From Commensalibacter communis (lineage in GTDB: Bacteria; Pseudomonadota; Alphaproteobacteria; Acetobacterales; Acetobacteraceae), in contig NZ_CAMXCM010000002.1 of assembly GCF_947179015.1 (NCBI RefSeq), forward strand, positions 1-64,000: a DNA stretch of 64,000 bases, read 5' to 3'. The notes beneath the pieces are model-generated. The model saw nothing but the letters and a program-made list of their open reading frames with translations, did no database searches and was not told the DNA's origin. Positions 29,619 through 58,667 of this stretch are shown here, one piece after another. Position 1 is the stretch's first letter, and every line of letters starts with the position of its first letter. The translations under genes were made by a program, and so were the position numbers.

Positions 29619-30314
29619 CTATTTTAAATGTTGTATTCCATCATGACCAGCGATTAAGACTTCGTCTGTACAATGGATGAATAGACCATTCTCCATCACC
29701 CCAACGATTTCATTAATTTCTTTTTCTAATTTGGCTGGATCCGTAATTAATCCAAAATGACAATCCAAAATCATATTCGCACCATCTGTTAAGAAAAACT
29801 CTTGGCTTTCTTTCTTAAGGCGAATGCTAATGGTTGCACCAATCTTTTCAAGATGTTTTGCTGTTGCTTCCCATCCAAATGGCGTTACTTCTACAGGGAC
29901 AGGCGTATGATCGCCTAATTGATCTACCATTTTACGTTCGTCAACCACCACCACAAATTTCTTTGCAGCGTAACGAACAATCTTCTCTCTTAATAACGCA
30001 CCACCTAATCCTTTGATTAAATGATAATGTTGGTGGGTTACCTCATCAGCACCATCGATATCCAAATCTAATTCGGGACATTTGCCTAACGTGGTCAATT
30101 CAATCCCAAAAGACTGCGCCAAGTGGGCTGTATCAACGGAAGTTGGCACGCCAATAAAACGTAGCCCTTCTTCTTGCCACCGCTTTCCCAAAGCACGCAC
30201 AACACAGGCAGCAGTACTACCACTTCCTAGACCAACCTTCATTCCTGAAGTAACCAAAGAAGCTGCAACTTTTCCCACTTGTTGTTTATAAATTTCTATT
30301 TGACTTGCATCCAT
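29619..30314 (-). CDS. rpiA: Ribose-5-phosphate isomerase A
   Basis: A 231-residue enzyme interconverting ribose 5-phosphate and ribulose 5-phosphate. Phosphate-binding GLGSGSTAACVVRAL is near residue 28, the catalytic region DLDIDGADEV near residue 84 and KGLGGALLREK near 97. Complete length. It sits between pgl and gntK on the minus strand, 82 bases downstream of pgl behind a hairpin, so it may have its own promoter. Confidence 0.95.
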   Translation of the reverse strand: MDASQIEIYKQQVGKVAASLVTSGMKVGLGSGSTAACVVRALGKRWQEEGLRFIGVPTSVDTAHLAQSFGIELTTLGKCPELDLDIDGADEVTHQHYHLIKGLGGALLREKIVRYAAKKFVVVVDERKMVDQLGDHTPVPVEVTPFGWEATAKHLEKIGATISIRLKKESQEFFLTDGANMILDCHFGLITDPAKLEKEINEIVGVMENGLFIHCTDEVLIAGHDGIQHLK

Positions 30315-40684: not shown

Positions 40685-41821
40685 CTATTTCCCACTTTGT
40701 AAAGTTTCTAATTTTTCTTTAACGGATCCTAATAATTGATCAAACGCAGTTGCGAATTGAGCAACACCATCAGTCAATAATTTTTCTGTAACACCAGCCA
40801 AATCTAGATTGAGGCGTTGTGCTTCTGACAATATTTTCTTAGCACCTTCAACATCTTTATCTAATGTTTGAGAGGCTGTTCCATGATCACGGAACGCATC
40901 CATCGTCGCAGGAGGAATGGTATTTACAGTATCTTGACCAATTAACCCATCAACATAAATTGTGTCTGGGAAAGTCTTGTCTTTACATCCAGTACTTGCC
41001 CATAACAAACGTTGTGGTTGTGCGCCTGCAGCAGCAAGTTTTTTCCAACGATCTGTTTTCAAAACTTCCAAATAATGCTGATAAGCCATTTTTGCATTTG
41101 CAAGAGCTACTTTGCCACGAAGTGCTTTTAAAGCATCACTGTCTTTGTCACCAGCTGCAACACGAGAATCAATTTCTTTATCAATAGCAACATCAATACG
41201 GCTAACAAAGAAAGAAGCAACACTAGCAATATGACCAATTTGATGACCTTTTGCTAAATGCTTTTCTAAACCAGAAATATACGCTTCTAAAACATTTTTA
41301 TAAGCATCCAAAGAGAATAATAATGTTACGTTTACATTAATGCCTTCAGAAATTGCGGTTTCAATCGCAGGAATACAAGGAGGGGTTGCTGGAATTTTAA
41401 TCATCAAATTCTTTTCAGAAACTTGCTTCCATAAACGGCGTGCTTCTTCGATGGTTTTATGACCATCCATCGCAATATAAGGTGATACTTCAAGACTTAC
41501 ATATCCATCCACACCTTTTGTTTTTTCCCATACAGGGAACATTACTTTACAAGTATTCCGAATATCTTCAATCGCTGCGGTTTCATATAATGTCGAAACG
41601 TCAGTTACACCTGAAGCAATTAATTCTTTGAATTGTGGATCATATTCTGTGCCATGACCCATTGCTTTTTCAAAAATTGCAGGATTGGAAGTGACGCCTT
41701 TAAGATTATCTTCATCAACCAATTTTTTCAGACTGCCATTTGCAGTAAAAGAACGCTGAATAAAGTCCAACCAAGGAGATTGACCATATTTTTCAAGTTG
41801 AACCAGAGGATTTTCAGCCAT
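40685..41821 (-). CDS. tal: Transaldolase
   Basis: A 378-residue transaldolase of the longer (actinobacterial/plant-like) type. The Schiff-base lysine is in LMIKIPAT near residue 142; GVTSNPAIFEKAM near residue 43 and NVTLLFSLDAYKNV are family hallmarks. It exchanges dihydroxyacetone units between sedoheptulose 7-phosphate and glyceraldehyde 3-phosphate. AAGGAA lies eight bases before the ATG. It is followed directly by pgi. In several acetic acid bacteria the two are fused (family knowledge); here they are split. Confidence 0.93.
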   Translation of the reverse strand: MAENPLVQLEKYGQSPWLDFIQRSFTANGSLKKLVDEDNLKGVTSNPAIFEKAMGHGTEYDPQFKELIASGVTDVSTLYETAAIEDIRNTCKVMFPVWEKTKGVDGYVSLEVSPYIAMDGHKTIEEARRLWKQVSEKNLMIKIPATPPCIPAIETAISEGINVNVTLLFSLDAYKNVLEAYISGLEKHLAKGHQIGHIASVASFFVSRIDVAIDKEIDSRVAAGDKDSDALKALRGKVALANAKMAYQHYLEVLKTDRWKKLAAAGAQPQRLLWASTGCKDKTFPDTIYVDGLIGQDTVNTIPPATMDAFRDHGTASQTLDKDVEGAKKILSEAQRLNLDLAGVTEKLLTDGVAQFATAFDQLLGSVKEKLETLQSGK

Positions 41822-41891
41822 TGGATGTTTTTCCTTCTAAAATTAATTTATATAAAAACGAATTATGTATTATTGATTCGATATTAGAAAT

Positions 41892-41932
41892 ATTAAAGCC
41901 CTCTTTTACATGATTGTAAAGAAGGCTTTAAT
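41892..41932 (-). terminator. Strong intercistronic hairpin between tkt and tal
   Basis: ATTAAAGCC / GGCTTTAAT (9 bp) continues inward with CTTTTAC / GTAAAG pairing with one bulge, giving a long stem over 41892-41932. On the minus strand it is followed by ATTTCT only. It may attenuate transcription from tkt into tal or protect the tkt mRNA end. Confidence 0.6.
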
Positions 41933-41943
41933 GAGTTTAGGCT

Positions 41944-44016
41944 TTATTTTTTAAGCTGCTCTTTTGCTGCAGCTAACACATTTTCTAGGGTAAAACCAAA
42001 ATGTTCGCGTAATTTATCATAAGGTGCAGAAGCCCCAAAACTACGCATTGCAATAATGGTTCCTGTTGGGCCTGCATAACGATCCCAACCGATTGGAGAT
42101 GCTTGTTCGATCGCAACACGACCTGTGATATGTGGAGGTAATACTTCGTCACGATAAGATTTTGGTTGCTCTTCAAAAATTTCCCATGAAGGCATAGAAA
42201 CAACACGAGCTTTTTGACCTTCTTTAATCAATACCTCATATGCTTCCATCGCCAACCCAACTTCACTGCCAGATGCAATTAAGATCACTTCAGGCAATTC
42301 ACCACAACAAGCAACAACATAACCCCCTTTGTGTAACCCTGCAGCAGAGGCGTATTTAGAACGATCAATAGTCGGTAAATTTTGACGGCTCAATGCCAAA
42401 ATAACAGGATGAGCATGGTTATAATCTTGTCCCATTGCCAATTTCCATGCTTCCACAACTTCATTTGCATCCGCTGGTCGAATTGTGCGAATCCCTGGGG
42501 TTGCACGGAAATGTGCTAATTGTTCAATAGGTTGATGGGTCGGACCATCTTCGCCAACACCAATACTGTCATGTGTAAATACATAAACAATCGGCAAGCC
42601 CATAATAGAAGCCAAGCGAACTGGGTTTTTCATGTAATCAGAGAAAATAAAGAACCCAGCAGCATAAGTTCTGAGACCACTTAATGCGATACCATTGGCG
42701 ATTGCACCCATTGCATGTTCACGAACACCGTAATGAATATTACGACCACAAAAAGTACCATTACCTTCTGGATAATCAGGGCTTTGGAATACACCTGCGT
42801 CAGCAAATTCTAACCAGCTTTTATTTGAAGGTGCAAGGTCAGCAGATCCACCAACCATCCAAGGAATGTTTTTAGCAATTGCGTTCAATACTTTTCCAGA
42901 ACTTGCACGAGAAGCAACCCCTTTTGGATCAGCCTCAAAAACTGGAATATCTTTATCCCACCCTTTTGGTAAACGATGATGAATAATATCTTCAATTTCT
43001 TGAGCAAGTTCTGGATGCTTTGTTTTATATTCAGCAAATAATGCATTCCATTTTTGGCTTGCTTCTGCACCACGCTTACCAATTCCAGCAGCGAAATGCT
43101 CTTTAACACCATCGGCAACATAAAATGTTTTATCTTCAGGCATACCATATACTTTTTTAGTTGCCTTAACTTCATCTGGTCCAAGAGGTTCACCATGAAC
43201 ACCATGTGTACCAGCTTTGTTAGGAGAACCATACCCAATGATACTATCTAAGATAACCAAACTTGGTGCATCAGATGCTTGACGTGCTTCGTTTAATTTA
43301 GCTTGAAAATCTGCAATGTTATTTGCATCTTTAACTTCATGAATATGCCAACCTTGAGCTTTGAAGCGTTTTGCAACATCATCTGTAAAGGCAATATTAA
43401 TATTACCTTCAATAGAAATGCGGTTACGATCATATACCCAAACTAAATTCCCTAATTTCAAGTGACCTGCAACAGAAGCTGCTTCATAAGAAATCCCTTC
43501 CATCAAATCACCATCACCACAGAAGGTGTAGATGTGATAATCAAACAAAGGAAAACCTTGTTGATTATATCTTGAGGCCAACCATTTTTGTGCAATGGCC
43601 ATCCCTACAGAAGTTGCCAACCCTTGTCCCAAAGGTCCTGTAGTTGTTTCAACACCAGCTGTGTGACGATATTCTGGATGACCAGGAGTTTTTGAATTAA
43701 ACTGTCTAAACTGTTCTAAATCTTGTAGAGTCAACGCTGGTTTTTGTTCAACTTTACCATCATGGGTAACATTATGAATTCCAGCCAAATGAATCATTGA
43801 ATATAATAATGCAGAGGCATGACCACCAGAAAGTACAAAACGATCGCGTGCTGGCCATAGTGGATTTGCAGGATCATAATTTAGCACATTATTCCACAGC
43901 GCATATGCGGCTGGTGCCAAACCCATTGGTGTTCCAGGATGCCCAGAATTGGCAGCCTGCACTTGGTCAATGGCCAAGCCACGAATAGTATTAATACAAA
44001 GTTCATCAATATTCAT
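41944..44016 (-). CDS. tkt: Transketolase
   Basis: A 690-residue TPP enzyme. Residues GGHASALLYSM (catalytic His region, near 63), the TPP-binding motif GDGDLMEGISYEA near 160, THDSIGVGEDGPTHQP near 470 and a C-terminal transketolase domain are present. It moves two-carbon units between pentose phosphates and erythrose 4-phosphate. First gene of the tkt-tal-pgi-gnd operon, reading leftward. Confidence 0.97.
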   Translation of the reverse strand: MNIDELCINTIRGLAIDQVQAANSGHPGTPMGLAPAAYALWNNVLNYDPANPLWPARDRFVLSGGHASALLYSMIHLAGIHNVTHDGKVEQKPALTLQDLEQFRQFNSKTPGHPEYRHTAGVETTTGPLGQGLATSVGMAIAQKWLASRYNQQGFPLFDYHIYTFCGDGDLMEGISYEAASVAGHLKLGNLVWVYDRNRISIEGNINIAFTDDVAKRFKAQGWHIHEVKDANNIADFQAKLNEARQASDAPSLVILDSIIGYGSPNKAGTHGVHGEPLGPDEVKATKKVYGMPEDKTFYVADGVKEHFAAGIGKRGAEASQKWNALFAEYKTKHPELAQEIEDIIHHRLPKGWDKDIPVFEADPKGVASRASSGKVLNAIAKNIPWMVGGSADLAPSNKSWLEFADAGVFQSPDYPEGNGTFCGRNIHYGVREHAMGAIANGIALSGLRTYAAGFFIFSDYMKNPVRLASIMGLPIVYVFTHDSIGVGEDGPTHQPIEQLAHFRATPGIRTIRPADANEVVEAWKLAMGQDYNHAHPVILALSRQNLPTIDRSKYASAAGLHKGGYVVACCGELPEVILIASGSEVGLAMEAYEVLIKEGQKARVVSMPSWEIFEEQPKSYRDEVLPPHITGRVAIEQASPIGWDRYAGPTGTIIAMRSFGASAPYDKLREHFGFTLENVLAAAKEQLKK

Positions 44017-47567: not shown

Positions 47568-49118
47568 ATGACTAAAATCTTAAATCCTTCTTTATGTACT
47601 TTTATTGTATATGGTAAGAAATTAGCATCATATTCTTATTATCTTCCTCTAATCATTATATTTTGCAGCAATCAATCTCATGCTGCTCAGCCCTCTGCAT
47701 TAACAACTCACGATGCGTCACCATCACCTAATAGCAGCAGCGCAAACCCCACAAAAAAGACACCTCCTCCTGCGAAAGTTCTGGATCAAGACACAGGGCA
47801 ACATCCTGAAGACAAGGATATGTTATTAAAAGATATGTGGGGCGTTCGCCCTTGGTTAGCAAATTATGGCATTACCTTTACCGCAGTTGACATTAACGAA
47901 GTATGGGGAAACCCTTATGGCGGCAACAAGCAAGGTGCTGCATATGAAGGCATGACCACGTTGACTTTGAACTGGGATCCTGAGAAAATTTTGGAAATAA
48001 AACATGGACTGTTTAATATCAGTGGTATGCAAATCAGAGGTCGGCAATTCACAGCAGAGAATCTTAGCAACCTTAATAATATCAGTGGTATTGAAGCCAA
48101 TCGTTCCACAAGGCTATGGGAACTATGGTACCAACAAGGATTTTGGGATGACAAATTTACAGTACGTATCGGTAAATTGAGCTTGGATCAAGAATTTAAT
48201 ATCAGCGATTATGCCACTATGTTTATGAATGCTTCCTTTGGTTGGTCGATGGTCAGCTCTGTTGATACCTATAGCGGTGGAGTAGACTATCCTCTGGCTG
48301 CTCCTGGTATTCGATTTGCTTTTCAGCCCAATGAAAATTGGACAAATTTATTTGCAATTACCAATGACAATCCAAATAATGTTCCTTTTTGTAATCCATC
48401 AGGGGCATTTACATGTGATCCACAAGCAAAACATCTTTCTGGAACGCATTTTAATTTTACAACGGGTGTGTTTATTATCAATGAGCTGCAATATCATTTA
48501 AACCCTGCTCCTGATGATAAGGACAAATTATCATCGACAGGATATCCAGGAACTTACAGGATTGGCGCTTATTTTGACAGCGCTGGTTTTCCCGATCAAC
48601 GATATAATGCGCAAAAACTACCGCTTGCTGATCCTGACAATGCCCAAACTATGTGGAAACATCGTCATAATTGGTCTCTCTATGGAATCATCGACCAAAT
48701 GGTGTGGCGTAATAAAAATAGAAACCATTCTATAGGTCTATTTGGTCGTATTCAAACTTCACCAGGAGACCGTAGCCCTGTTAATCTTGGTGGCGATGCT
48801 GGGATTGTCTATAAAGGTATGTTTAATAGGGAAGATGACTCTATTGGTTTTGCTTGGGGATTTGGTCGCTTTGGAGATCGAGCCAGACAATATGATCGTG
48901 ATTATCGCTATTTCAATAATGATCCCTCATGGCGCATCAGAAGAACAGAACACCACATAGAATTAGCATGGCAAATCCAAGCAACCCCATGGTGGGAAAT
49001 CAAACCAGATTTTCAATATATATTTAATCCTGGTGGGGGATTAAATTTAGAAGAAGGGTACCATAAACGCATTCAAAATGAAGCTATATTTGGATTAAGA
49101 TCGACAATTAATTTTTAA
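47568..49118 (+). CDS. oprB: OprB-type carbohydrate porin
   Basis: A 516-residue outer-membrane protein. The signal segment is unusual in length (about residues 1-42, cut after SHA). A Pro/Ser/Thr-rich linker follows, then a beta-barrel with alternating aromatic strands ending in STINF. Phrases WGVRPWLANYGITF, RIGKLSLDQEFNISDYATMFMNASFGW and EWKPDFQYIFNPGG-like repeats match the OprB family. It lets sugars and polyols through the outer membrane, in keeping with the downstream polyol genes. Confidence 0.9.
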   Translation: MTKILNPSLCTFIVYGKKLASYSYYLPLIIIFCSNQSHAAQPSALTTHDASPSPNSSSANPTKKTPPPAKVLDQDTGQHPEDKDMLLKDMWGVRPWLANYGITFTAVDINEVWGNPYGGNKQGAAYEGMTTLTLNWDPEKILEIKHGLFNISGMQIRGRQFTAENLSNLNNISGIEANRSTRLWELWYQQGFWDDKFTVRIGKLSLDQEFNISDYATMFMNASFGWSMVSSVDTYSGGVDYPLAAPGIRFAFQPNENWTNLFAITNDNPNNVPFCNPSGAFTCDPQAKHLSGTHFNFTTGVFIINELQYHLNPAPDDKDKLSSTGYPGTYRIGAYFDSAGFPDQRYNAQKLPLADPDNAQTMWKHRHNWSLYGIIDQMVWRNKNRNHSIGLFGRIQTSPGDRSPVNLGGDAGIVYKGMFNREDDSIGFAWGFGRFGDRARQYDRDYRYFNNDPSWRIRRTEHHIELAWQIQATPWWEIKPDFQYIFNPGGGLNLEEGYHKRIQNEAIFGLRSTINF

Positions 49119-49218: not shown

Positions 49219-49635
49219 TTACCGACTATCCCAATGCAAATTATTCCATCGCATCTCTTTATAATAGCCTTGTTGAATTTTCTTAAAAATTGCTGAAGGT
49301 TTATCTTGTGTAAGATAATTGAAATGCAAAATAGAATCTTGACCTTCTAAAAACATTTGTAAGATTGGCGTTATAGATGAAATTATATAACGAGGTCTAT
49401 AATTTTCCTCTTGCGCTACAACAGCACAAATTAAAGGACGATTTGTAGCAACAACCCAGCATGCTTTACCATCACTAATCCTTGGAAGATCATATTGTTG
49501 TGATAATATCGTTAACAGTTCATGCATAGTCATTTTAACGCTACATGAATAGTTTCTTCGATGATCTACAATATCATCTGCCATACAAACACTATCACGA
49601 TCAATCACTACATCAATACATTGCATGATAATCAT
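49219..49635 (-). CDS. Hypothetical protein
   Basis: A 138-residue protein with five cysteines, three of them within the first 31 residues. No domain, signal peptide or membrane helix is recognised. The patterns TMHELLTILSQQYDLPRI and GKACWVVAT suggest a compact alpha/beta fold. It stands between the porin and the dhaL terminator, opposite in direction to the porin. Function unknown. Confidence 0.5.
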   Translation of the reverse strand: MIIMQCIDVVIDRDSVCMADDIVDHRRNYSCSVKMTMHELLTILSQQYDLPRISDGKACWVVATNRPLICAVVAQEENYRPRYIISSITPILQMFLEGQDSILHFNYLTQDKPSAIFKKIQQGYYKEMRWNNLHWDSR

Positions 49636-49718: not shown

Positions 49719-50363
49719 TTATTTAATTCTTGCTTCTAGACTGTCAGCGAGTTGAGTTACCAATAAACAACATGATGTCGCACCAGCATCCAAAACGCCT
49801 TTTGAACGTTCACCCAAACGGCTTGCACGGCCAATTTTAGCCACTAAATCTTTGGTTGAATCACGACCTTTTGCAGCAGCATCTTTCATAATATTCAATG
49901 CTTCTTTAAAAGTTTTACCGTCTTTCACTGCTTGTTGAAAAGTTTCAACCGCAGGAAATAATGTATCGACTAAACATTTATCACCCTTTTGAGCTGGGCT
50001 GATATCTTGAAGTTCACTCATCCCATTCACCAACATGGCTTGAACATCTTCTTTGGTGAGTTCAGTTTTACCTTGAATACTGTCTGACCAACCGGTGAAG
50101 ATACAGCCATATAATGGCCCCATAGAACCACCAATGCCTTCCATCAAAGAATCACTAAGTTCAGCCAAGGCTTCTGATAAAGTTAATTCCTTACCATCAA
50201 TACGGGTTTTACAAATATTAAACCCTTTAGCCATGTTAATGCCATGATCCCCGTCGCCGATCGCACCATCGATTTCACTTAAGTAATCCCGATTGCTAAC
50301 GATCACATTGATCAAATCATTAACGACATCAACACCATTTTTAATAACAACAACTTCAGACAT
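49719..50363 (-). CDS. dhaL: Dihydroxyacetone/erythrulose kinase, L subunit
   Basis: A 214-residue DhaL-type nucleotide-binding subunit. DGAIGDGDHGINMAKGF near residue 30 holds the conserved aspartates that bind Mg-ADP, and GGSMGPLYG and GARSRLGERS-like segments (GRASRLGERSKGVLDAGA) follow. The start is MSEVVVI, four bases after the dhaK stop; the longer upstream frame overlaps dhaK and lacks a site. No DhaM phosphotransferase subunit is nearby, so phosphate donor (ATP or PEP via ADP) is open. Confidence 0.9.
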   Translation of the reverse strand: MSEVVVIKNGVDVVNDLINVIVSNRDYLSEIDGAIGDGDHGINMAKGFNICKTRIDGKELTLSEALAELSDSLMEGIGGSMGPLYGCIFTGWSDSIQGKTELTKEDVQAMLVNGMSELQDISPAQKGDKCLVDTLFPAVETFQQAVKDGKTFKEALNIMKDAAAKGRDSTKDLVAKIGRASRLGERSKGVLDAGATSCCLLVTQLADSLEARIK

Positions 50364-50367
50364 TTTA

Positions 50368-51372
50368 TTAACCTTGAACCATACCAAGAGAATGAACAGG
50401 AGCATCAACAAGTTTCTTCAACTCGTCATCTAATTTCATCATAGAAAGGGTAACACCCATCATTTCAAGCGAAGTGAAATAGTTGCCCACGTAGCTACGA
50501 TGAACCTTAACGCCTTTTTCTTTTAAAATACGATCAACTTCAGCATAATAAATATACAGCTCCATCGTAGGGGTCGCACCCAAACCGGAAACCAAGACAA
50601 CAACTTCAGAACCGGCTTCAAAAATACCCTCTGTTAAAATTGGTTCTAACATAGTTGCTGCCATTTCTTTAGCAGGTTGTAATGGAACAACATTGATACC
50701 AGGCTCACCATGATGACCGATACCAACTTCCATCATTCCATTATCAATGTTGAAATTAGGATGACCAACAGCTGGAATAATACAAGAGCTTAATCCAACC
50801 CCAATAGAACGACAATTATCAATTGCTTTTTGAGCAGCTGCAATCACGCCATCAAGGTCGTAACCGGCCGCTGCAGCTGCACCACCTACTTTCCACATCA
50901 AAATTTCGCCAGCAACGCCACGACGTTTTTCTTTTTCTGTGATTGGTGCAGAAGCAACATCATCATTAGCAACCACTGTTTTTACAGTAATACCAGCAGC
51001 AGCAGCTTTTTTCACTGCCATTTTGACATTCATATTGTCGCCAGCATAATTTCCGTATAAGCACGCAACGCCAGCGCCACCATCAGCAGCTTTCATCGCA
51101 TCAAGAAAAGCACCCGCGGTTGGTGAAGAAAAGATTTCACCAATAGCAACAGCATCCACCATGTTTTTACCAACATAGCCCAAGAAAGCAGGCTCATGAC
51201 CAGAACCACCACCAGTGACAATCCCAACTTTTCCTTGTTGTGGAATAGAAGGATATTTCAATACTCTTTCGTGATTTGTTTTGGAAAAAAACTCTGGATG
51301 AGCAGCAACATATCCTTCAATCGCATCTTCTACAACAAGATTAGGGTCGTTAATTATTCTGTTCAATTTCAT
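50368..51372 (-). CDS. dhaK: Dihydroxyacetone/erythrulose kinase, K subunit
   Basis: A 334-residue substrate-binding subunit. GGGSGHEPAFLGYVG near residue 55 and GIGHHGEPGI near 215 include the histidines that bind the ketone covalently in DhaK. Family knowledge: DhaK homologues phosphorylate dihydroxyacetone, but close relatives in tetritol operons use D- or L-erythrulose. The neighbours here (threitol-type SDR, erythritol/L-threitol-type dehydrogenase, RpiB-like isomerase) favour erythrulose. Confidence 0.9.
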   Translation of the reverse strand: MKLNRIINDPNLVVEDAIEGYVAAHPEFFSKTNHERVLKYPSIPQQGKVGIVTGGGSGHEPAFLGYVGKNMVDAVAIGEIFSSPTAGAFLDAMKAADGGAGVACLYGNYAGDNMNVKMAVKKAAAAGITVKTVVANDDVASAPITEKEKRRGVAGEILMWKVGGAAAAAGYDLDGVIAAAQKAIDNCRSIGVGLSSCIIPAVGHPNFNIDNGMMEVGIGHHGEPGINVVPLQPAKEMAATMLEPILTEGIFEAGSEVVVLVSGLGATPTMELYIYYAEVDRILKEKGVKVHRSYVGNYFTSLEMMGVTLSMMKLDDELKKLVDAPVHSLGMVQG

Positions 51373-51410
51373 AATTTATTCACTTCTATTTAAGTAACAT
51401 GTATGTGATC

Positions 51411-52166
51411 TTACTGAATTGTAAAACCACCATCAATAACTAAATTTGCACCATTAATAATAGACGCTTCACTGCTTGCCAAATACACGGCAGCAGCAGC
51501 AATTTGATCTGGTTCAGCAAAACGGCGTGATGGAATTTTTGCTTTGAACTCATCTCCCACAGCACCAGCCCACACCGTTTTACCCATTGCCGTTAAGACA
51601 ACAGTCGGAGAAATCGAATTCACATTGATATTGGATGGTCCCCATTCCAAAGCCAATACTTTGGTTAAACCAATAACACCCGCTTTGCTGGCACAATATG
51701 AAAGATGGTTTGGAAGTGCGACAACACCTGCTTGAGAAGCAAAGTTAATGATAGAACCTTGCTTTTGTTTTAGCATCACTTTACCGACAGCTTGAGAAAC
51801 AAAGAATGTTCCTTTGAGATTAATCGCAATCGTTGCATCCCAACCTTCTTCACTGACATCCTCAGCAGCATCTAATATTGCAACACCTGCGCAATTCACT
51901 AAAATATCAATACGACCATAATGATCGACGACTGCTTTGATGGTCTGATCAATTTGATCTTTTTTGGTTACATCAAGTTGTAATCCAATTACATTTTCTG
52001 CATTCAATTCTTTGGCGATTTCTGCAATATTTTCTGCACGATCTAGTAGTGCAACTTTAACACCTTTTTCTAGATAAGCCTTGGCAATTTCATTACCAAT
52101 CCCTGCACCACCACCTGTAATGATAGCAACTTTTCCAGATAAATCGAACATTTCTTTTTGAGACAT
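51411..52166 (-). CDS. SDR family polyol dehydrogenase, probable D-threitol dehydrogenase
   Basis: About 251 residues. Cofactor motif TGGGAGIG near residue 15, NCAG, catalytic Ser in NFASQAG and YCASK give a classical SDR. The C-terminal phrases SISPTVVLTAMGKTVWAGAVG and LVIDGGFTIQ match the D-threitol dehydrogenase (DthD) group as I know it. The start MSQKEMF has AAAGGA seven bases upstream. It sits between the MFS gene and dhaK in one operon. Substrate is inferred; xylitol or arabinitol are alternatives. Confidence 0.75.
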   Translation of the reverse strand: MSQKEMFDLSGKVAIITGGGAGIGNEIAKAYLEKGVKVALLDRAENIAEIAKELNAENVIGLQLDVTKKDQIDQTIKAVVDHYGRIDILVNCAGVAILDAAEDVSEEGWDATIAINLKGTFFVSQAVGKVMLKQKQGSIINFASQAGVVALPNHLSYCASKAGVIGLTKVLALEWGPSNINVNSISPTVVLTAMGKTVWAGAVGDEFKAKIPSRRFAEPDQIAAAAVYLASSEASIINGANLVIDGGFTIQ

Positions 52167-52200
52167 GATGATATCCTTTGTGATCTGATTGTTAATTTGT

Positions 52201-53475
52201 TTAAAGGGCTTCTTTAACTGCAACGCTTAACTCATGCTCAACACTGTCGCCAGAGGGCTGTCTTACATTTACAAAAATCATCAATATAGCGGCTACTATA
52301 TATAAGACTGTATAAATATAAATAACGCCCGCACTGCCAATAGAAGCAATAAATAATGTTACAATAAAATATCCAAAGAAATAGCTCATCCCTGCACCAA
52401 AATTAAGAATGGACATCGCTGCACCTTTTTCATTTGGAGCCAACATTGGCATGATTGCAGATAATGGAACAAACGCAGCAAGGAAACAGCCATAAACACT
52501 AGCAATAACAGTAATCGTTAAAACAGAAGCATGAGATATAATAGCATAATAGAACAAGAATGTTGTAATTGCACAGCCAACACAACCAAACCACATCACC
52601 ACATTACGCCAACCTAATTTATCCGCAATAATGCCCCATAATAAATTAAATGCAACATTGGTCATCCATAACCAGAAAACGACAGACAACCAAACACTTT
52701 TGTCATAACTTTGAGCAATTAAGAGCGCAGGAATAAAAACAGGGAACCCATAAGCAGCACTGGTATTAATCATACGAACGATACCGCCCATTGCAACCTT
52801 TGGCTTTTTGGTGAGAATTGTTAACCCGTTAAGCAAATAAGCAAAAGATGCTTTTTCTGATTTTTGATTATTGTTACTAGCAGTATCACCACCACTCAAA
52901 GCCAAAGCAATAATCGCGCCCAATGTTACAAAAATTAACGCCGTCCACAATAAATGCAAATGCTGCATGTGGAAATAATTCAGCATAATATCAGAATATT
53001 TGGTGCCTATGACAGCAACCCCACCTGAATACATAAACCAAAAAATACCAACAGCAGATCCCAAACGTTCTGCAGGTGCTTCATACGCAACCCAAACTAA
53101 AAAGCCATAAGCAAATAATGGATATGCCAATCCACGAATAGCATAAGTCGGAATAATCCAATATAAGCTATTCGTAGGGATACCAAAGGTCAGAAAGAAG
53201 AATGAACCAATATAAAATAAAACGAGCCCGATGAACATCACACGCCTGACACCAAAGATTTCAGCCAAAACGCCAGAAAACCATGATGAAATAGCCACCA
53301 TCAGTCCATATATGGTATAAATAAGACCCGTTTGAGCCTCGGTCATACCGTTATGCTGTAAATAGTCAGGTAACCAGTTGAGTTCCAACCCTTCACCGGC
53401 CATAAATATCATTACCCCAAAATAACCCAACATTAATTTTGGTGAAACGAAAATTCTATTAATTATATTGCCCAT
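52201..53475 (-). CDS. MFS polyol transporter (RbtT/DalT-like)
   Basis: About 424 residues with 12 predicted helices. The N-terminal GYFGVMIFMAGEGLELNWLP and the later GLAYPLFAYGFLVW and LSAIMPMLAPNEKGAAMSI resemble ribitol/D-arabinitol proton symporters. The start is MGNIIN, with GGGAAGAG before it; the longer frame would run through the upstream hairpin. It follows the zinc dehydrogenase gene and precedes the SDR gene, so a tetritol or pentitol is the likely cargo. Confidence 0.85.
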   Translation of the reverse strand: MGNIINRIFVSPKLMLGYFGVMIFMAGEGLELNWLPDYLQHNGMTEAQTGLIYTIYGLMVAISSWFSGVLAEIFGVRRVMFIGLVLFYIGSFFFLTFGIPTNSLYWIIPTYAIRGLAYPLFAYGFLVWVAYEAPAERLGSAVGIFWFMYSGGVAVIGTKYSDIMLNYFHMQHLHLLWTALIFVTLGAIIALALSGGDTASNNNQKSEKASFAYLLNGLTILTKKPKVAMGGIVRMINTSAAYGFPVFIPALLIAQSYDKSVWLSVVFWLWMTNVAFNLLWGIIADKLGWRNVVMWFGCVGCAITTFLFYYAIISHASVLTITVIASVYGCFLAAFVPLSAIMPMLAPNEKGAAMSILNFGAGMSYFFGYFIVTLFIASIGSAGVIYIYTVLYIVAAILMIFVNVRQPSGDSVEHELSVAVKEAL

Positions 53476-53495
53476 ACACTCTTCCCTTATAAACA

Positions 53496-53524
53496 AAAGC
53501 CTAGCCATTAGTCAGCTAGGCTTT
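53496..53524 (-). terminator. Internal hairpin between dehydrogenase and MFS genes
   Basis: AAAGCCTAGC / GCTAGGCTTT form a perfect 10-bp stem with a 9-base loop, followed by TTGTTTAT on the minus strand, about 20 bases before the MFS start. It would lower readthrough from the dehydrogenase gene into the rest of the operon or stabilise the upstream mRNA. Confidence 0.6.
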
Positions 53525-53540
53525 GCATCAACCGAAATGG

Positions 53541-54656
53541 CTATCTTCTATTTGGATCCAAAACGATTTTCAAAGAACCAACGCCTTTTTTCATTAGTCC
53601 AAAGGCTTCTTGATATTCTTCTAATGCGAATACGTGTGTTACAACGCCCTCTGTTGGGAAATCTCCATTTTGAATACCCTTAATGGTCATTGGATAACAA
53701 TATGGACCAAGATGAGACCCTAATACATCCAACTCTTTACGATCGCTGATAATGCTCCAATCAACTGCCACAGGATCTTTGAATACTGAAAATTCAACAA
53801 AACGACCCAATTTGCGGATCATCGCTAATCCTTGTTCAACAGATTTACCCGCACCTGTTGCTTCAATATAAATATCACAACCATAACCTTCGGTCATATC
53901 TTTGATTTTTTGAACGACGTCTTCTTTGGCAGGATTCATCACGATATCGGCACCGAATTTCTTTGCCATAGCAAGACGGTCTTCGTTTAAATCGAGAACA
54001 ACTAATTTATCTGGACCAGACTTTTTAATCGCACCAATCATCCCTAGGCCAAGAGTACCAGCACCAGAAAGCACAACAACGTCACCCAATTTAACGCTTG
54101 CACGTTGCACAGCATGCATTGAACATGCATATGGTTCGATCAATACAGCTTTTTCCATTGGCAAATCATCAGGAACGCGATGGTTGATTCCTTCTTTTGG
54201 AAGTTTGATATATTCCGCCATTGCACCATTAACGTTCTTTTGGAAACCATATAGATCGTGTTTTTCACACATCCAATATTCACCACGATTACAAAAGCGG
54301 CAATCCCAACAAGGAACGATTTGTTCAGAGGTAATACGATCATTTAATTTAAAATCGTTAATCCCCTCGCCATAAGCAACGACGTGACCAATGAACTCGT
54401 GCCCTGGAATCATTGGGGCCTTGATATAAGCAGGTTGTTTTTCATCCCCCCAAAAGCTTGGGGCACCTTCGAAAGATTTAATATCTCCAGCACAAATACC
54501 GCATGCCTCGACCTTGACTAAAATTTCGTTTGGACCAATTTCAGGAACAGGCACTTCTTCAAAACGATAATCACCAGGAGCATATGCCACAATAGCACGC
54601 ATCGTCTTAGGAATATTATCTAATTTAGCAACTGGGCCAGTTTTAATCTCTGTCAT
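53541..54656 (-). CDS. Zinc-dependent polyol dehydrogenase, probable erythritol/L-threitol dehydrogenase
   Basis: A 371-residue medium-chain dehydrogenase. Catalytic zinc ligands are seen in CGICAGD and GHEFIG; the structural zinc loop CWDCRFCNRGEYWMC has all four cysteines; the NAD-binding GAGTLGLGMIG is near residue 200. EGAPSFWG and the YWMCEKHDLYGFQ phrase match the erythritol/L-threitol dehydrogenase (EltD) group as I recall it. First gene of the minus-strand polyol operon, divergent from rpiB. Confidence 0.8.
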   Translation of the reverse strand: MTEIKTGPVAKLDNIPKTMRAIVAYAPGDYRFEEVPVPEIGPNEILVKVEACGICAGDIKSFEGAPSFWGDEKQPAYIKAPMIPGHEFIGHVVAYGEGINDFKLNDRITSEQIVPCWDCRFCNRGEYWMCEKHDLYGFQKNVNGAMAEYIKLPKEGINHRVPDDLPMEKAVLIEPYACSMHAVQRASVKLGDVVVLSGAGTLGLGMIGAIKKSGPDKLVVLDLNEDRLAMAKKFGADIVMNPAKEDVVQKIKDMTEGYGCDIYIEATGAGKSVEQGLAMIRKLGRFVEFSVFKDPVAVDWSIISDRKELDVLGSHLGPYCYPMTIKGIQNGDFPTEGVVTHVFALEEYQEAFGLMKKGVGSLKIVLDPNRR

Positions 54657-54839
54657 CGTGTGACTCTTTCTTGAACTTTTTAGGTTTAATTCTAGTCTGA
54701 CATCATTTATTAATTTAAAAATTAATACAAATAAAATACTTGTGATTTGACTTTTAAGATCGTTAGAACAACAAAGGTTAATCAGACAAATTCTCTTTGA
54801 TATTAGAGTGTTTATTATTGGAAATAATATATTTTCTGT

Positions 54840-54850
54840 ATGTTATCATT
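54840..54850 (+). promoter_or_regulatory. Extended -10 element upstream of the RpiB-like gene
   Basis: ATGTTATCATT contains TGn before TATCAT (54844-54849), an extended -10 pattern about 65 bases ahead of the start codon. The surrounding ATTTTC-TGTATG-TATCATT is nearly repeated at 55811-55831 (see findings), so it may be part of a common promoter/operator. No good -35 is visible. Confidence 0.35.
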
Positions 54851-54913
54851 GAACTCTTTGTGATATTTACAGAAAGCAAATATTAACGAAAACTTTAACC
54901 CTAGGAAAAAGTA

Positions 54914-55372
54914 ATGTTACCTATTGCTATTGGCTGTGATGATGCAGCGGTTAATTTAAAAAATACACTTGTGGAATGGTTAGAATCTATCGGCATCAAA
55001 GTCGTTGATTACAGCACAGACGCCAATCGTGAGTCTAATTATTATCCTGATATTGCGTGGTCTGTTGGCCAAGCAATCAAAGAAGGAAAACACGAACGCG
55101 GAATTTTAGTTTGCGGGACTGGTATTGGCATGGCTATTACTGCTAATAAAATTCCTGGAATTCGTGCAGCACAATGTCATGATACATTTTCTGCTGAACG
55201 TGCCAGAAAAAGCAACGATGCGCAAATTATCACTTTGGGCGAAAGAGTTATTGGTCCAGAATTAGCAAAAACCGTCGTTAAAGCTTGGCTAGATTCTGAA
55301 TTTTCTGGCGGTGGTTCAACCCCTAAGGTAGAACGCATCTCTTATTATGAAAAGAAAGCCATTTCTTCTTAA
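54914..55372 (+). CDS. RpiB/LacAB family sugar-phosphate isomerase
   Basis: A 152-residue isomerase. IAIGCDDAAVNLKNTL at the N-terminus, CGTGIGMAITANKIPGIRAA around the catalytic cysteine (near residue 71) and SNDAQIITLGERVIGPELA are hallmarks. Classical RpiB has HEAA where this has DDAA. Since rpiA is present elsewhere, a specialised role is likely: in tetritol pathways the RpiB homologue converts erythrulose 4-phosphate to erythrose 4-phosphate. It is divergent from the polyol operon across 257 bases. Confidence 0.85.
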   Translation: MLPIAIGCDDAAVNLKNTLVEWLESIGIKVVDYSTDANRESNYYPDIAWSVGQAIKEGKHERGILVCGTGIGMAITANKIPGIRAAQCHDTFSAERARKSNDAQIITLGERVIGPELAKTVVKAWLDSEFSGGGSTPKVERISYYEKKAISS

Positions 55373-55439: not shown

Positions 55440-55742
55440 TCAACAGGGTTCTTTGGCATAAAAAGATAGTTGGCAACGAACATCCTCACTACAAGATACA
55501 ATTCGATGATATTGTTTGGGTTGTATTAAGGGAGGCTGATTCTCTTTGGAATATTCAAGTCGATCGATGACTTCATCCTCATCTGACATAAACTCCATTA
55601 TTAAAGAGCCAGACAAGATTACTAACTTTGCCCATGTTCCAGACTTAGTATTATGACGACTTTTAAATCCTTCTGGTATCGTTTGTGCCGTCCAAACAGA
55701 AAGAGTTTTATAACATACTAAATCTTCATTTTTATTACTCAT
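55440..55742 (-). CDS. DUF1971 (TehB/YeaR-like) cupin protein
   Basis: A 100-residue small cupin. The patterns VWTAQTIPEGFKSRHNTKSGTW-like (SVWTAQTIPEGF, HNTKSGTWAKLVILSGSL) and PKQYHRI match the DUF1971 family, related to YeaR and the N-terminal domain of some tellurite-resistance TehB proteins. The histidines could bind a metal. It stands alone inside the polyol locus; role unknown. Confidence 0.75.
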   Translation of the reverse strand: MSNKNEDLVCYKTLSVWTAQTIPEGFKSRHNTKSGTWAKLVILSGSLIMEFMSDEDEVIDRLEYSKENQPPLIQPKQYHRIVSCSEDVRCQLSFYAKEPC

Positions 55743-56238: not shown

Positions 56239-57282
56239 ATGGCAAAAGCTCTTGTTTTAGAAAGCAAAGGTAAGCTGAGCATTCGTGACATCGATTTACC
56301 CAGTCATGTCGGCGCAAATGATGTTAAAATCAAAATCCATAACGTTGGTGTTTGTGGCAGTGATGTCCATTATTATACACATGGAAAAATTGGGCCTTTT
56401 GTTGTAAATGAACCAATGGTCCTGGGGCACGAAGCCTCTGGTACTGTGATCGAAGTCGGCAAAAACGTTACTAATCTTAATGTTGGCGATCGCGTTTGTA
56501 TGGAACCTGGTATTCCAAACCTGCATTCTAAAGCTACACAGTTGGGGATTTATAACGTTGATCCTGATGTGCGCTTTTGGGCGACCCCTCCTATTCATGG
56601 ATGCCTGACCGAAACGGTTGTTCATCCTGCTGCCTATACATTTAAATTACCTGATAATGTTTCTTTTGCCGAAGGTGCTTTTGTCGAACCTTTTGCAACT
56701 GGTGTACATGCTTGTGTCAAAGCACAAATTAAACCAGGAGATGTGTGTTTAGTTGCTGGGTGTGGTCCAATTGGTATTTTAACCGCATTGGCTGCATTGG
56801 CTTCTGGTGCAAGTAAAGTCTTTATTTCTGATGTTGCGGCTCCAAAACTAGCAATCGCAGGCCAATATGAAGGGTTGATCCCTGTTAATATTACCAAGGA
56901 ATCCTTGGTTGACAAAGTCAGAGCTGAATGTGGCAAAGACTGGGGCGTCGATGTGGCATTAGAAGCTTCTGGACATCCTTCTTCTTATGATCCATTACTT
57001 GCATGTGTCAGACCTGGTGGAACCATTGTATTTGTTGGAATGCCTGTTGATAAAGTTCCATTTGACTTGGTAACAGCACAAAGTAAAGAAGTGCGTATGG
57101 AAACTGTATTCCGTTATGCCAATGTATATGATCGTGCAGTCAGCTTAATCGCATCAGGAAAAGTCAACCTAAAACCATTGATTTCAGGTGTTTATCCATT
57201 TGAAAAAGCAATTGAAGCATTTGAACGTGCAGCATCTGCGAAACCTGATGATGTAAAATTACAAATTCAATTGGTTGAGTAA
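56239..57282 (+). CDS. Xylitol/sorbitol-type NAD-dependent polyol dehydrogenase
   Basis: A 347-residue medium-chain dehydrogenase that should oxidise xylitol or a related polyol to its ketose. Catalytic zinc ligands lie in [10 protein letters not shown] and GHEASG; NAD-binding [13 protein letters not shown] is near residue 175. The structural zinc cysteines are absent: the loop reads [18 protein letters not shown], a pattern I associate with Gluconobacter/rhizobial xylitol dehydrogenases. AGGAGG precedes the ATG by five bases. It is followed by its own terminator and then by an MFS transporter. Confidence 0.85.
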
Positions 57283-57306
57283 ATTATTTTACTTCTGTGA
57301 ATATCT

Positions 57307-57341
57307 AAGCCCGTCATGACAATGATTATGACGGGCTTTTT
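57307..57341 (+). terminator. Rho-independent terminator of the xylitol dehydrogenase gene
   Basis: AAGCCCGTCAT / ATGACGGGCTT form a perfect GC-rich 11-bp stem with a 10-base loop followed by TTTTT, 24 bases after the stop. Confidence 0.9.
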
Positions 57342-57380
57342 CCCCTTTACTGATTATTTCTCTTTTTGTGGACATTACAA

Positions 57381-58667
57381 ATGAGCAATTCCCAAACAAA
57401 ATCCCGTATGGTGATTGGTATGCCTGTTTCCCTGTTTTGGGGATATATTGCAGTTGCCCTATTTATGGCTGGAGACGGCTTTGAACAAAGTTTCTTGGCC
57501 CATTATATTCATCATGATTTAGGCATCGCCGAAGATAAAGGTAGCTTAATTTTTTCCATTTATGGGTTAACTGCTGCACTTTCCAGTTGGTTATCAGGGG
57601 TTTTCGCTGAAACCTTTGGTGCCAAGAGGATTATGATTATTGGTGTCATCATGTGGATTGTTTTGCATGCTGCTTTTATGCAATTTGGGATTGTTCCACA
57701 TAATTACTACGCTATTTTCGCTTTTTATGGATTAAGAGGATTTGCCTATCCTTTATTCTTTTATGGATTCTTTTATTGGGTCGTTAAAGAAACGCCTGAT
57801 AATCAACTAGCCTCAGCAGTAGGCTGGATTTGGTCTATGTTTACCATCGGGTATGGGATTATCGGATATTGTGTGCCTTATTTCTTTGTAGAAAAAATGG
57901 GAGCAGAATTTACCCTGTGGCAAGCACTCATCTGGGCGACTGCTGGTGCTGCAATTACAATCTTTCTTTTAAAAACCCCACCTGAAAGCAAAAGCGAGAA
58001 AGAACATAAATCACAATTATCTTTTGGTGCCAGAGTCAGCGAAATTTGCAGTGATTTAACACTCGTATTTCGTAGCCGTGATTTAGCCATTGCATTGGTT
58101 ATTAGAGCCATTTGTAATTTCTCTCTTTTCGGGGTGCTCACCGTTGTTCTCCCGAATTTCATGACTGCCAATGATGGGGGACAATTTACATTACATCAAT
58201 GGCAATTAATCAGTATATTTATTTATCCTATTCAACCTTTTACCAATGTCTTATGGGGAATTATTGGGGATCGTATTGGATGGTTAAAACAAATGCGTTG
58301 GGTTGGCTTTATTGGCTGCGGAACAGCGACTATCTTATTATATTATGTGCCAACCCTATTCCCAGGTAATGTTTACGCCAGCATTGCAGTAATGCTCTTC
58401 TTTGCCTTAACAATTACTTCTTTTGTACCAATGGGTGCTATTTTTCCAATGTTAGCCCCCGAAAGAAAAGGGGCTGCCGTCTCTATTCAAAATCTAGGTG
58501 GTGGGCTCAGCCAATTTCTTGGAAATGCTTTAGTTTCTGTTATCTACTTTATCGGTTTCGGAAACTATGGAGTCTTTATCATTTATGGACTTTTATATTA
58601 CTTTGCTGCCATATTGACTTACTTTATTCGCTTAAAACAACCCGGTGTTGATTACAAAATGACTTAA
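57381..58667 (+). CDS. MFS polyol transporter (RbtT/DalT-like), second copy
   Basis: About 428 residues and 12 helices. MPVSLFWGYIAVALFMAGDGFE, HYIHHDLG, GLRGFAYPLFFYGFFYW and MGAIFPMLAPERKGAAVSI closely resemble the Klebsiella ribitol and arabinitol symporters. It is homologous to the transporter at 52201-53475 but clearly diverged. The start is MSNSQ. Placed after the xylitol-type dehydrogenase and its terminator, it probably imports that enzyme's substrate. Confidence 0.88.
   Translation: MSNSQTKSRMVIGMPVSLFWGYIAVALFMAGDGFEQSFLAHYIHHDLGIAEDKGSLIFSIYGLTAALSSWLSGVFAETFGAKRIMIIGVIMWIVLHAAFMQFGIVPHNYYAIFAFYGLRGFAYPLFFYGFFYWVVKETPDNQLASAVGWIWSMFTIGYGIIGYCVPYFFVEKMGAEFTLWQALIWATAGAAITIFLLKTPPESKSEKEHKSQLSFGARVSEICSDLTLVFRSRDLAIALVIRAICNFSLFGVLTVVLPNFMTANDGGQFTLHQWQLISIFIYPIQPFTNVLWGIIGDRIGWLKQMRWVGFIGCGTATILLYYVPTLFPGNVYASIAVMLFFALTITSFVPMGAIFPMLAPERKGAAVSIQNLGGGLSQFLGNALVSVIYFIGFGNYGVFIIYGLLYYFAAILTYFIRLKQPGVDYKMT

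Follow-up and report, generated by a model that had tools for sequence, protein, structure and literature searches.

What does the locus at positions 49719-55372 of this stretch allow its host to use? The window, that is, the whole stretch of 64,000 nucleotides analysed here (contig NZ_CAMXCM010000002.1 of Commensalibacter communis), belongs to a Commensalibacter genome of 2.58 Mb in 66 contigs that is 99.76% complete, and the host is therefore an acetic acid bacterium, as an earlier note on the same DNA had supposed. All six frames of the locus are intact, and their order, strands and family models agree with the description given there: a zinc-dependent dehydrogenase, an RbtT-family transporter, a short-chain dehydrogenase/reductase (SDR) of the GolD/DthD family, dhaK and dhaL are transcribed in that order from the minus strand, with an RpiB-like isomerase gene divergent on the plus strand. 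To judge from the genes and their active-site residues, this is very probably an operon for tetritol catabolism, used by insect-gut Commensalibacter for growth on erythritol. Counts of loci given below refer to the 79 loci obtained from the best 80 of 142 confirmed stretches in a scan of named genomes with the dehydrogenase.

53541-54656, minus strand: zinc-dependent dehydrogenase of 371 amino acids, proposed erythritol dehydrogenase (EltD-like; Pfam ADH_N and ADH_zinc_N; dhaK at 61 of 79 loci)
52201-53475, minus strand: major facilitator superfamily (MFS) transporter of the RbtT/DalT/CsbX family, proposed tetritol importer (TIGR00897; start revised)
51411-52166, minus strand: SDR of the GolD/DthD family, proposed D-threitol dehydrogenase (NF005309; start revised)
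50368-51372, minus strand: dhaK, substrate-binding part of the proposed tetrulose kinase (Pfam Dak1, 382 bits)
49719-50363, minus strand: dhaL, nucleotide-binding part of the proposed tetrulose kinase (Pfam Dak2, 174 bits; TIGR02365, 167 bits, cut-off 138)
54914-55372, plus strand: RpiB-like isomerase, proposed D-erythrulose-4-phosphate isomerase (Pfam LacAB_rpiB; serine for the ring-opening histidine)

In the proposed route, the transporter would import erythritol and probably D-threitol too, the zinc dehydrogenase would oxidize erythritol to D-erythrulose and the SDR would form the same ketose from D-threitol. DhaK and DhaL would act as one two-part kinase, the ketose being bound covalently to DhaK at its equivalent of His218 and the phosphate coming from ATP on DhaL, without DhaM, to give D-erythrulose 4-phosphate. 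The RpiB-like enzyme would convert this to D-erythrose 4-phosphate, which transketolase and transaldolase would carry into central metabolism through the pentose phosphate pathway. The earlier note had proposed the same passage from erythrulose to erythrose 4-phosphate by way of a DhaK-type kinase and an RpiB homologue; it finds support both in the conservation of the unit and in residue changes in the two enzymes.

The conserved unit and its gene company

Across the 79 loci, dhaK accompanies the dehydrogenase in 61, dhaK with dhaL in 60 and both with an rpiB homologue in 55, so the grouping is not due to chance. A transporter homologue is present in 39 of the 61 dhaK loci and an SDR homologue of at least 50% identity in 31. 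Serratia, Pantoea and an Erwinia bin share the window gene order with rpiB divergent, and a SorC regulator lies 3' of dhaL in Serratia and Pantoea; none was found in the Erwinia bin. The order in Listeria is dehydrogenase-transporter-rpiB-dhaK-dhaL-SDR-tkt-DeoR, the loci of several Bacilli include glpX, and in Pleomorphomonas the order is dhaK-dhaL-dehydrogenase, in a stretch that also contains tal.

The genes for transketolase (tkt) and transaldolase (tal), or glpX, occur in the flanks of 36 of the 57 kinase-bearing loci outside Commensalibacter, as against none of 18 kinase-less loci (Fisher p = 7e-7, with related genomes counted as independent); tkt or tal alone account for 27 of the 57. 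Part of the difference may stem from distance and short flanks, since 15 of the kinase-less loci are distant relatives (51-58% identity) and eight are shorter than 17 kb. A product bound for the pentose phosphate pathway would need tkt, tal or glpX whereas a dihydroxyacetone operon would not, and this company of genes thus favors the tetritol route.

The same argument cannot be made from the window itself. Its tkt and tal genes do lie near the operon (40685-44016, ~5 kb away), and the earlier note took them to receive the product, but the link is weak: in the operon-less congener G214, tkt and tal occupy the same place, in the same order, beside the ankyrin and hisC genes. Their proximity was for this reason rejected as evidence for the pathway.

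Active sites of the isomerase and the kinase

The histidine that opens the sugar ring in RpiB (E. coli His99) is serine in the window isomerase and in all 56 locus copies, while the catalytic cysteine and threonine are kept. The window protein further has aspartate at the His10 site, and glycine and lysine replace two phosphate-binding arginines. On chemical grounds, a furanose ring cannot close in a tetrose or tetrulose phosphorylated at C4, as the free hydroxyl for it is lacking; a ring-opening base is then unneeded, and serine in place of histidine is as expected. Ring opening in RpiB employs a conserved histidine, His102 in Clostridium thermocellum (PMC3212906), and the H99N change in E. 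coli RpiB lowers kcat 26-fold (PMC4783025). An RpiB-like protein of Coccidioides shows the same kind of residue changes, and its authors suspected a substrate of shorter chain (PMC3212906).

DhaK retains His56, Asp109 and His218 but departs from comparison proteins at two other sites. Lys104 is glycine in 61 of 61 locus rows covering the site, and Ile217 is histidine in 57 of 62, including the window copy, with valine in three and isoleucine in two; the dhaK rows used include a second kinase of L094, which is fused, and a fragment from L067. The three comparison DhaK proteins, from E. coli, Lactococcus lactis and the genome's own fused kinase, carry lysine and isoleucine. Lys104 presumably contacts the substrate. 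It is plausible that the two changes make room for a longer ketose.

Curated models also bear on the kinase. Window DhaK and DhaL joined end to end pass PRK14479 (NF011049; 602 bits, cut-off 492), which neither reaches alone (425 and 187), and the joined protein fails the glycerone kinase model (355, cut-off 575). A naturally fused Dak1-Dak2 protein adjoins the same dehydrogenase in three genomes of the family and scores 609-614 bits with PRK14479. No EIIA-Man domain (PF03610), the mark of DhaM, was matched anywhere in the genome, the control being positive in 5 of 14 genomes, and the split DhaK and DhaL without DhaM described in the earlier note is thus supported. Most simply, the pair is read as one ATP-dependent kinase in two parts. 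It could instead be a kinase of the phosphotransferase system (PTS) type that has lost DhaM, which would then need an unseen phosphoryl donor or be non-functional, and the GDGDHG motif of DhaL does resemble that of the PTS subunits of E. coli (GDADHG) and L. lactis (GDGDHG). The chance of this seems slim indeed: the fused relatives beside the same dehydrogenase consist of Dak1 and Dak2 only, the fused PRK14479 kinase in L094 shares the GDGDHG core, and the genes are intact in all Commensalibacter copies examined.

The same proteins might be thought to belong to a glycerol or dihydroxyacetone operon, in which the zinc enzyme would be a glycerol dehydrogenase and the kinase would make dihydroxyacetone phosphate. 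Their annotation as DhaK and DhaL, the passing of TIGR02365 by DhaL and the kept catalytic residues of DhaK would suit it. However, DhaK fails the dhaK1 model (349, cut-off 406) and has lost Lys104, the kinase is accompanied by an RpiB homologue and in many cases by tkt, tal or glpX, and a separate fused kinase elsewhere in the genome (contig C3) is nearer to glycerone kinase (563, still under the cut-off of 575; PRK14479 467, also under its cut-off). A role confined to dihydroxyacetone is accordingly very unlikely, and a tetrulose remains the preferred substrate.

Two further arrangements of such kinases were seen. On pSymB of Sinorhizobium meliloti (L145, 8001-12572), a split dhaK and dhaL with the same changes precede genes for a fusion of SorC with DhaK and for another DhaL; the ABC transporter beside them has, by annotation, a binding protein of the autoinducer-2 type. 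In L094, the locus of the split kinase also contains, at 15662-17955, another kinase, which is fused and scores 716 bits with PRK14479, and another RpiB-like gene.

Substrates, spread and surroundings of the operon

The zinc dehydrogenase passes no NCBIfam cut-off; its nearest named stand-in, at 53.5% identity, is a Providencia plasmid protein that RefSeq calls erythritol/L-threitol dehydrogenase. The SDR had been called DthD-like, rightly by the GolD/DthD model NF005309 (371 bits, cut-off 286), and the transporter passes TIGR00897 (465 bits, cut-off 375).

Several observations weigh against a tetritol pathway. The isomerase passes two curated RpiB models (PRK05571, 190 bits against 135; the equivalog TIGR01120, 148 against 139) and fails the DerI model NF051858 (174, cut-off 240), as do the Serratia, Staphylococcus and Listeria locus copies (178, 162 and 151); by its name, this model was built on rhizobial DerI. 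Histidine is retained at the His10 site in 27 of the 56 locus copies, with aspartate in 23. The SDR also passes a glucose 1-dehydrogenase model (227 against 215), and its nearest solved relative is called a sorbitol dehydrogenase. DhaK of S. meliloti pSymB has both residue changes, yet no such dehydrogenase or rpiB is found among its 16 annotated neighbors, so the DhaK signature alone is no proof of erythritol use. Relatives of the zinc dehydrogenase at ~47-58% identity adjoin FGGY or other genes without dhaK, and no regulator adjoins the operon in Commensalibacter.

Lachnospiraceae relatives of the dehydrogenase (L096-L105 and L107; 56-58%) are without dhaK. Most have genes for an ABC importer as neighbors, and several a gene like those of isomerases or epimerases, which makes another substrate likely for them.

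Taken with the RbtT/DalT-type transporter and the GolD-type SDR, the RpiB scores could point to a pentitol operon, for D-arabitol or similar, whose dehydrogenases would make pentuloses and whose RpiB-like enzyme would be a true ribose-5-phosphate isomerase. This we consider highly improbable. A pentulose kinase of the FGGY family is missing from the operon, the four FGGY genes of the genome lying elsewhere; the serine found in 56 of 56 copies sits where H99N is so costly to the E. coli enzyme; and an RpiA-like gene (29619-30314, named by eye) is also present in the genome.

If tetritols are the substrates, their stereochemistry can be narrowed. EltD with the kinase LerK takes erythritol to D-erythrulose 4-phosphate, and L-threitol to L-erythrulose 1-phosphate, which needs the isomerase LerI (PMC10733421); Brucella EryH, which matches LerI, is a triosephosphate isomerase (TIM) homologue (PMC5992420). 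The genome has one TIM gene (PF00121), on another contig and far from the operon. With a single TIM gene and no LerI/EryH, the erythritol and D-threitol arms fit and the L-threitol arm does not, and the use of L-threitol foreseen in the earlier note is to be dropped.

The lack of a LerI-type gene would also suit a different role for the SDR alone. It might reduce L-erythrulose to erythritol, which the zinc enzyme would re-oxidize to D-erythrulose, a redox-neutral inversion in place of LerI. Stereochemical reasoning allows it: an enzyme of the EltD type acts on the S carbon (consistent with PMC10733421) and one for D-threitol on the R carbon, and the two together would connect both erythruloses by way of erythritol. 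Such an inversion is possible but unlikely. Many loci have no SDR beside the operon, e.g. in Staphylococcus, and the genome gave no match to the membrane-bound pyrroloquinoline quinone (PQQ) dehydrogenase TIGR03074 that would make L-erythrulose outside the cell (control positive in 4 of 14, over the cut-off in one). Periplasmic oxidation in Gluconobacter presumably employs an enzyme of this family; lacking a match, the Commensalibacter genome is not expected to carry out oxidation of that type. Oxidation of D-threitol stays the preferred role of the SDR.

The nearest named records to the window locus are C. papalotli and C. intestini, and ~18 kb of gene order is common to the window and C. papalotli. 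Six of seven genomes in the genus sample hold a dehydrogenase homologue, the exception being G214, in which hisC is followed by a homologue of window gene 26851-29052; the operon block is thus absent from that place. In the family sample, a homologue at E <=1e-100 is present in 31 of 299 genomes and 11 of 102 genera (47-100% identity). A dhaK tree of 75 rows (without L131-L133 and without rows below 43% identity or 80% coverage; groupings from the part of the tree listed) puts Commensalibacter and G013, which belongs to a different genus of the family, among Enterobacterales (21 rows, 98/96). The remaining Acetobacteraceae stand apart, in a group with Pleomorphomonas (23 rows, 100/98). Within the enterobacterial group, Commensalibacter joins Providencia with weak support (80/45), and the tree does not give the direction of transfer. 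Among the rows listed of the dehydrogenase tree, 13 family members and Pleomorphomonas fall in a 24-row set (98/91) that excludes the window. SorC is kept 3' of dhaL in G013 and not in C. papalotli or C. melissae.

Plasmids carry the genes too, 21 of 72,556 records having a dehydrogenase homologue at 1e-100. Seven of these are at ~77% identity, in Raoultella, Klebsiella, E. coli and Salmonella, and annotation was examined for two. The Klebsiella plasmid (L143, 2636-11836) has tkt-tal-rpiB divergent from dehydrogenase-MFS-dhaK-dhaL-regulator, without an SDR; the Salmonella plasmid (L144, 3926-11711) has tal-rpiB divergent from dehydrogenase-MFS-SDR-dhaK-dhaL-regulator; insertion-sequence genes are near both. 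Over its full 9.2 kb, the Klebsiella cluster is matched at 99.8% by the E. coli plasmid, whose genome is the one among 5,426 of E. coli to cover 80% or more of the cluster. The cluster is evidently mobile, with the Commensalibacter copy closest to those of Serratia-type bacteria and whole copies on enterobacterial plasmids.

A link to phenotype is suggested by Serratia. S. ureilytica, S. bockelmannii and S. nevei, which we take to be members of the S. marcescens complex, hold the operon in the window gene order. In a selective medium for S. marcescens that goes back to a method of 1972, erythritol at 0.5% is the only carbon source (PMC9148086), and an isolate nearest to S. nevei came from a D-erythrose enrichment (PMC12780249). 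Growth of Serratia on erythritol and the putative erythritol operon of its kin form a correlation. A wider proposal, which we would place midway between acceptance and doubt, is that of a mobile erythritol cassette of its own lineage. Its marks would be a tetrulose kinase in two parts that works without DhaM (Lys104 to Gly, mostly Ile217 to His) and an isomerase that acts on tetrose phosphates in acyclic form (His99 to Ser), often together with its own tal/tkt or glpX. Such a cassette would explain the selective growth of S. marcescens on erythritol known since 1972 and would have passed between Enterobacterales and insect-gut Commensalibacter, with SorC lost in the latter.

The layout of the five genes fits a single operon. 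With the likely start codons of dhaL (50363), the SDR (52166) and the transporter (53475), all revised, the gaps are 65, 34, 38 and 4 bases, dhaL starting 4 bases past dhaK. The longest-frame ATG of the transporter falls inside a hairpin 3' of the dehydrogenase gene. Three further features complete the locus.

54657-54913, no strand: divergent intergenic region, presumed promoters for both units (by position only)
53496-53524, minus strand: 12-pair hairpin in the gap between the dehydrogenase and transporter genes (terminator scan)
47568-49118, plus strand: OprB-family porin converging on dhaL, associated only (Pfam OprB, 310 bits)

The intergenic region is poorly conserved across five aligned Commensalibacter copies, and a promoter scan of it gave no excess over shuffles. 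Terminator-like sites number five against 4.8 expected, likewise no excess over shuffles, so that the evidence at class level is weak. As a possible regulator of the operon, the genome's one SorC-domain gene (C3:104770) was rejected: it has 27-30% identity to the operon SorC of Providencia and G013 and sits in another polyol locus. That locus (L139, 5683-13715, on contig C3) comprises two transketolase-like halves (named by eye), an FGGY kinase, two SDRs, the SorC regulator and an RbtT-type transporter with 51% identity to that of the operon. A DeoR-domain gene is present at C4:24448.

The porin adjoins dhaL also in C. papalotli and C. melissae. Between it and dhaL, a 138-residue frame (49219-49635, minus strand) has no Pfam or NCBIfam match and no counterpart listed there in these two species, and is possibly not a gene. 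On the other side, a small DUF1971 protein (TehB N-terminal-like; 55440-55742, minus strand) lies between rpiB and a second polyol pair (56239-58667, plus strand) made up of a zinc dehydrogenase of 347 residues and a second RbtT-family transporter (TIGR00897, 457 bits). Both the small protein and the pair keep their positions in C. papalotli and C. melissae.

Comparison with known systems

Among open-licence papers, Commensalibacter and erythritol came together in just one, which by its title and abstract deals with food additives, and none of the matches listed described genes by which Commensalibacter, Serratia, Providencia, Listeria, staphylococci or plasmid-bearing enterobacteria would grow on erythritol. 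The operon offers a concrete candidate for all of these. Its two residue signatures may set tetrulose pathways apart from genes that carry the annotation ribose-5-phosphate isomerase or dihydroxyacetone kinase, and as erythritol is a common sweetener, its plasmid-borne use by gut bacteria would be of practical interest.

The nearest relative by description is the tetritol pathway of Mycolicibacterium smegmatis, with EltD, DthD, LerK, LerI and DerI (described via PMC10733421 and PMC12780249). It too oxidizes first and then uses a DhaK-type kinase and an RpiB-type isomerase to reach D-erythrose 4-phosphate, and the window likewise has genes for a putative tetritol dehydrogenase and these two enzymes together. 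EltD, LerK, LerI and DerI are reported to relieve a requirement for erythrose 4-phosphate (PMC10733421). The Commensalibacter-type operon differs in its separate DhaK and DhaL, its lack of a LerI-type TIM gene and its MFS importer, and relatives often have their own tal/tkt or glpX. The ery operon of Brucella and rhizobia also ends with an RpiB-type enzyme, EryI, and D-erythrose 4-phosphate (PMC5992420, PMC3599248). In Brucella, however, the first step is a phosphorylation by EryA, a kinase of the FGGY family, and EryB, EryC and EryH also take part; the window operon has none of the four, and none of the genome's four FGGY matches lies in the window. The genes proposed for erythritol in Halanaerobium polyolivorans are of other kinds (PMC10536098).

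The PTS-dependent DhaKLM systems share the separate DhaK and DhaL and the DhaL motif; the Commensalibacter genome differs in having no DhaM, and its DhaK in having glycine for Lys104. Among fungi, the Coccidioides immitis structures 3qd5 and 3sdw share with the window isomerase the RpiB fold, serine for the ring-opening histidine, aspartate at the His10 site and lysine for one phosphate-binding arginine, and Yarrowia YALI0F01628g is alike, by description, in its RpiB fold and a role in erythritol use (PMC5992420).

Closest of all is the form found in Serratia, Pantoea and the Klebsiella-type plasmids (L037-L039, L046-L049, L143 and L144), which has the same genes, in the same order in Serratia and Pantoea. 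There, dhaL is followed by a SorC regulator and rpiB by tal, often with tkt; the Commensalibacter operon has neither of these additions at its side. The kind of pathway is already known, and the operon is a distinct variant of it by its split, DhaM-free kinase, its residue signatures, its company of tal, tkt or glpX and its spread on plasmids and across phyla.

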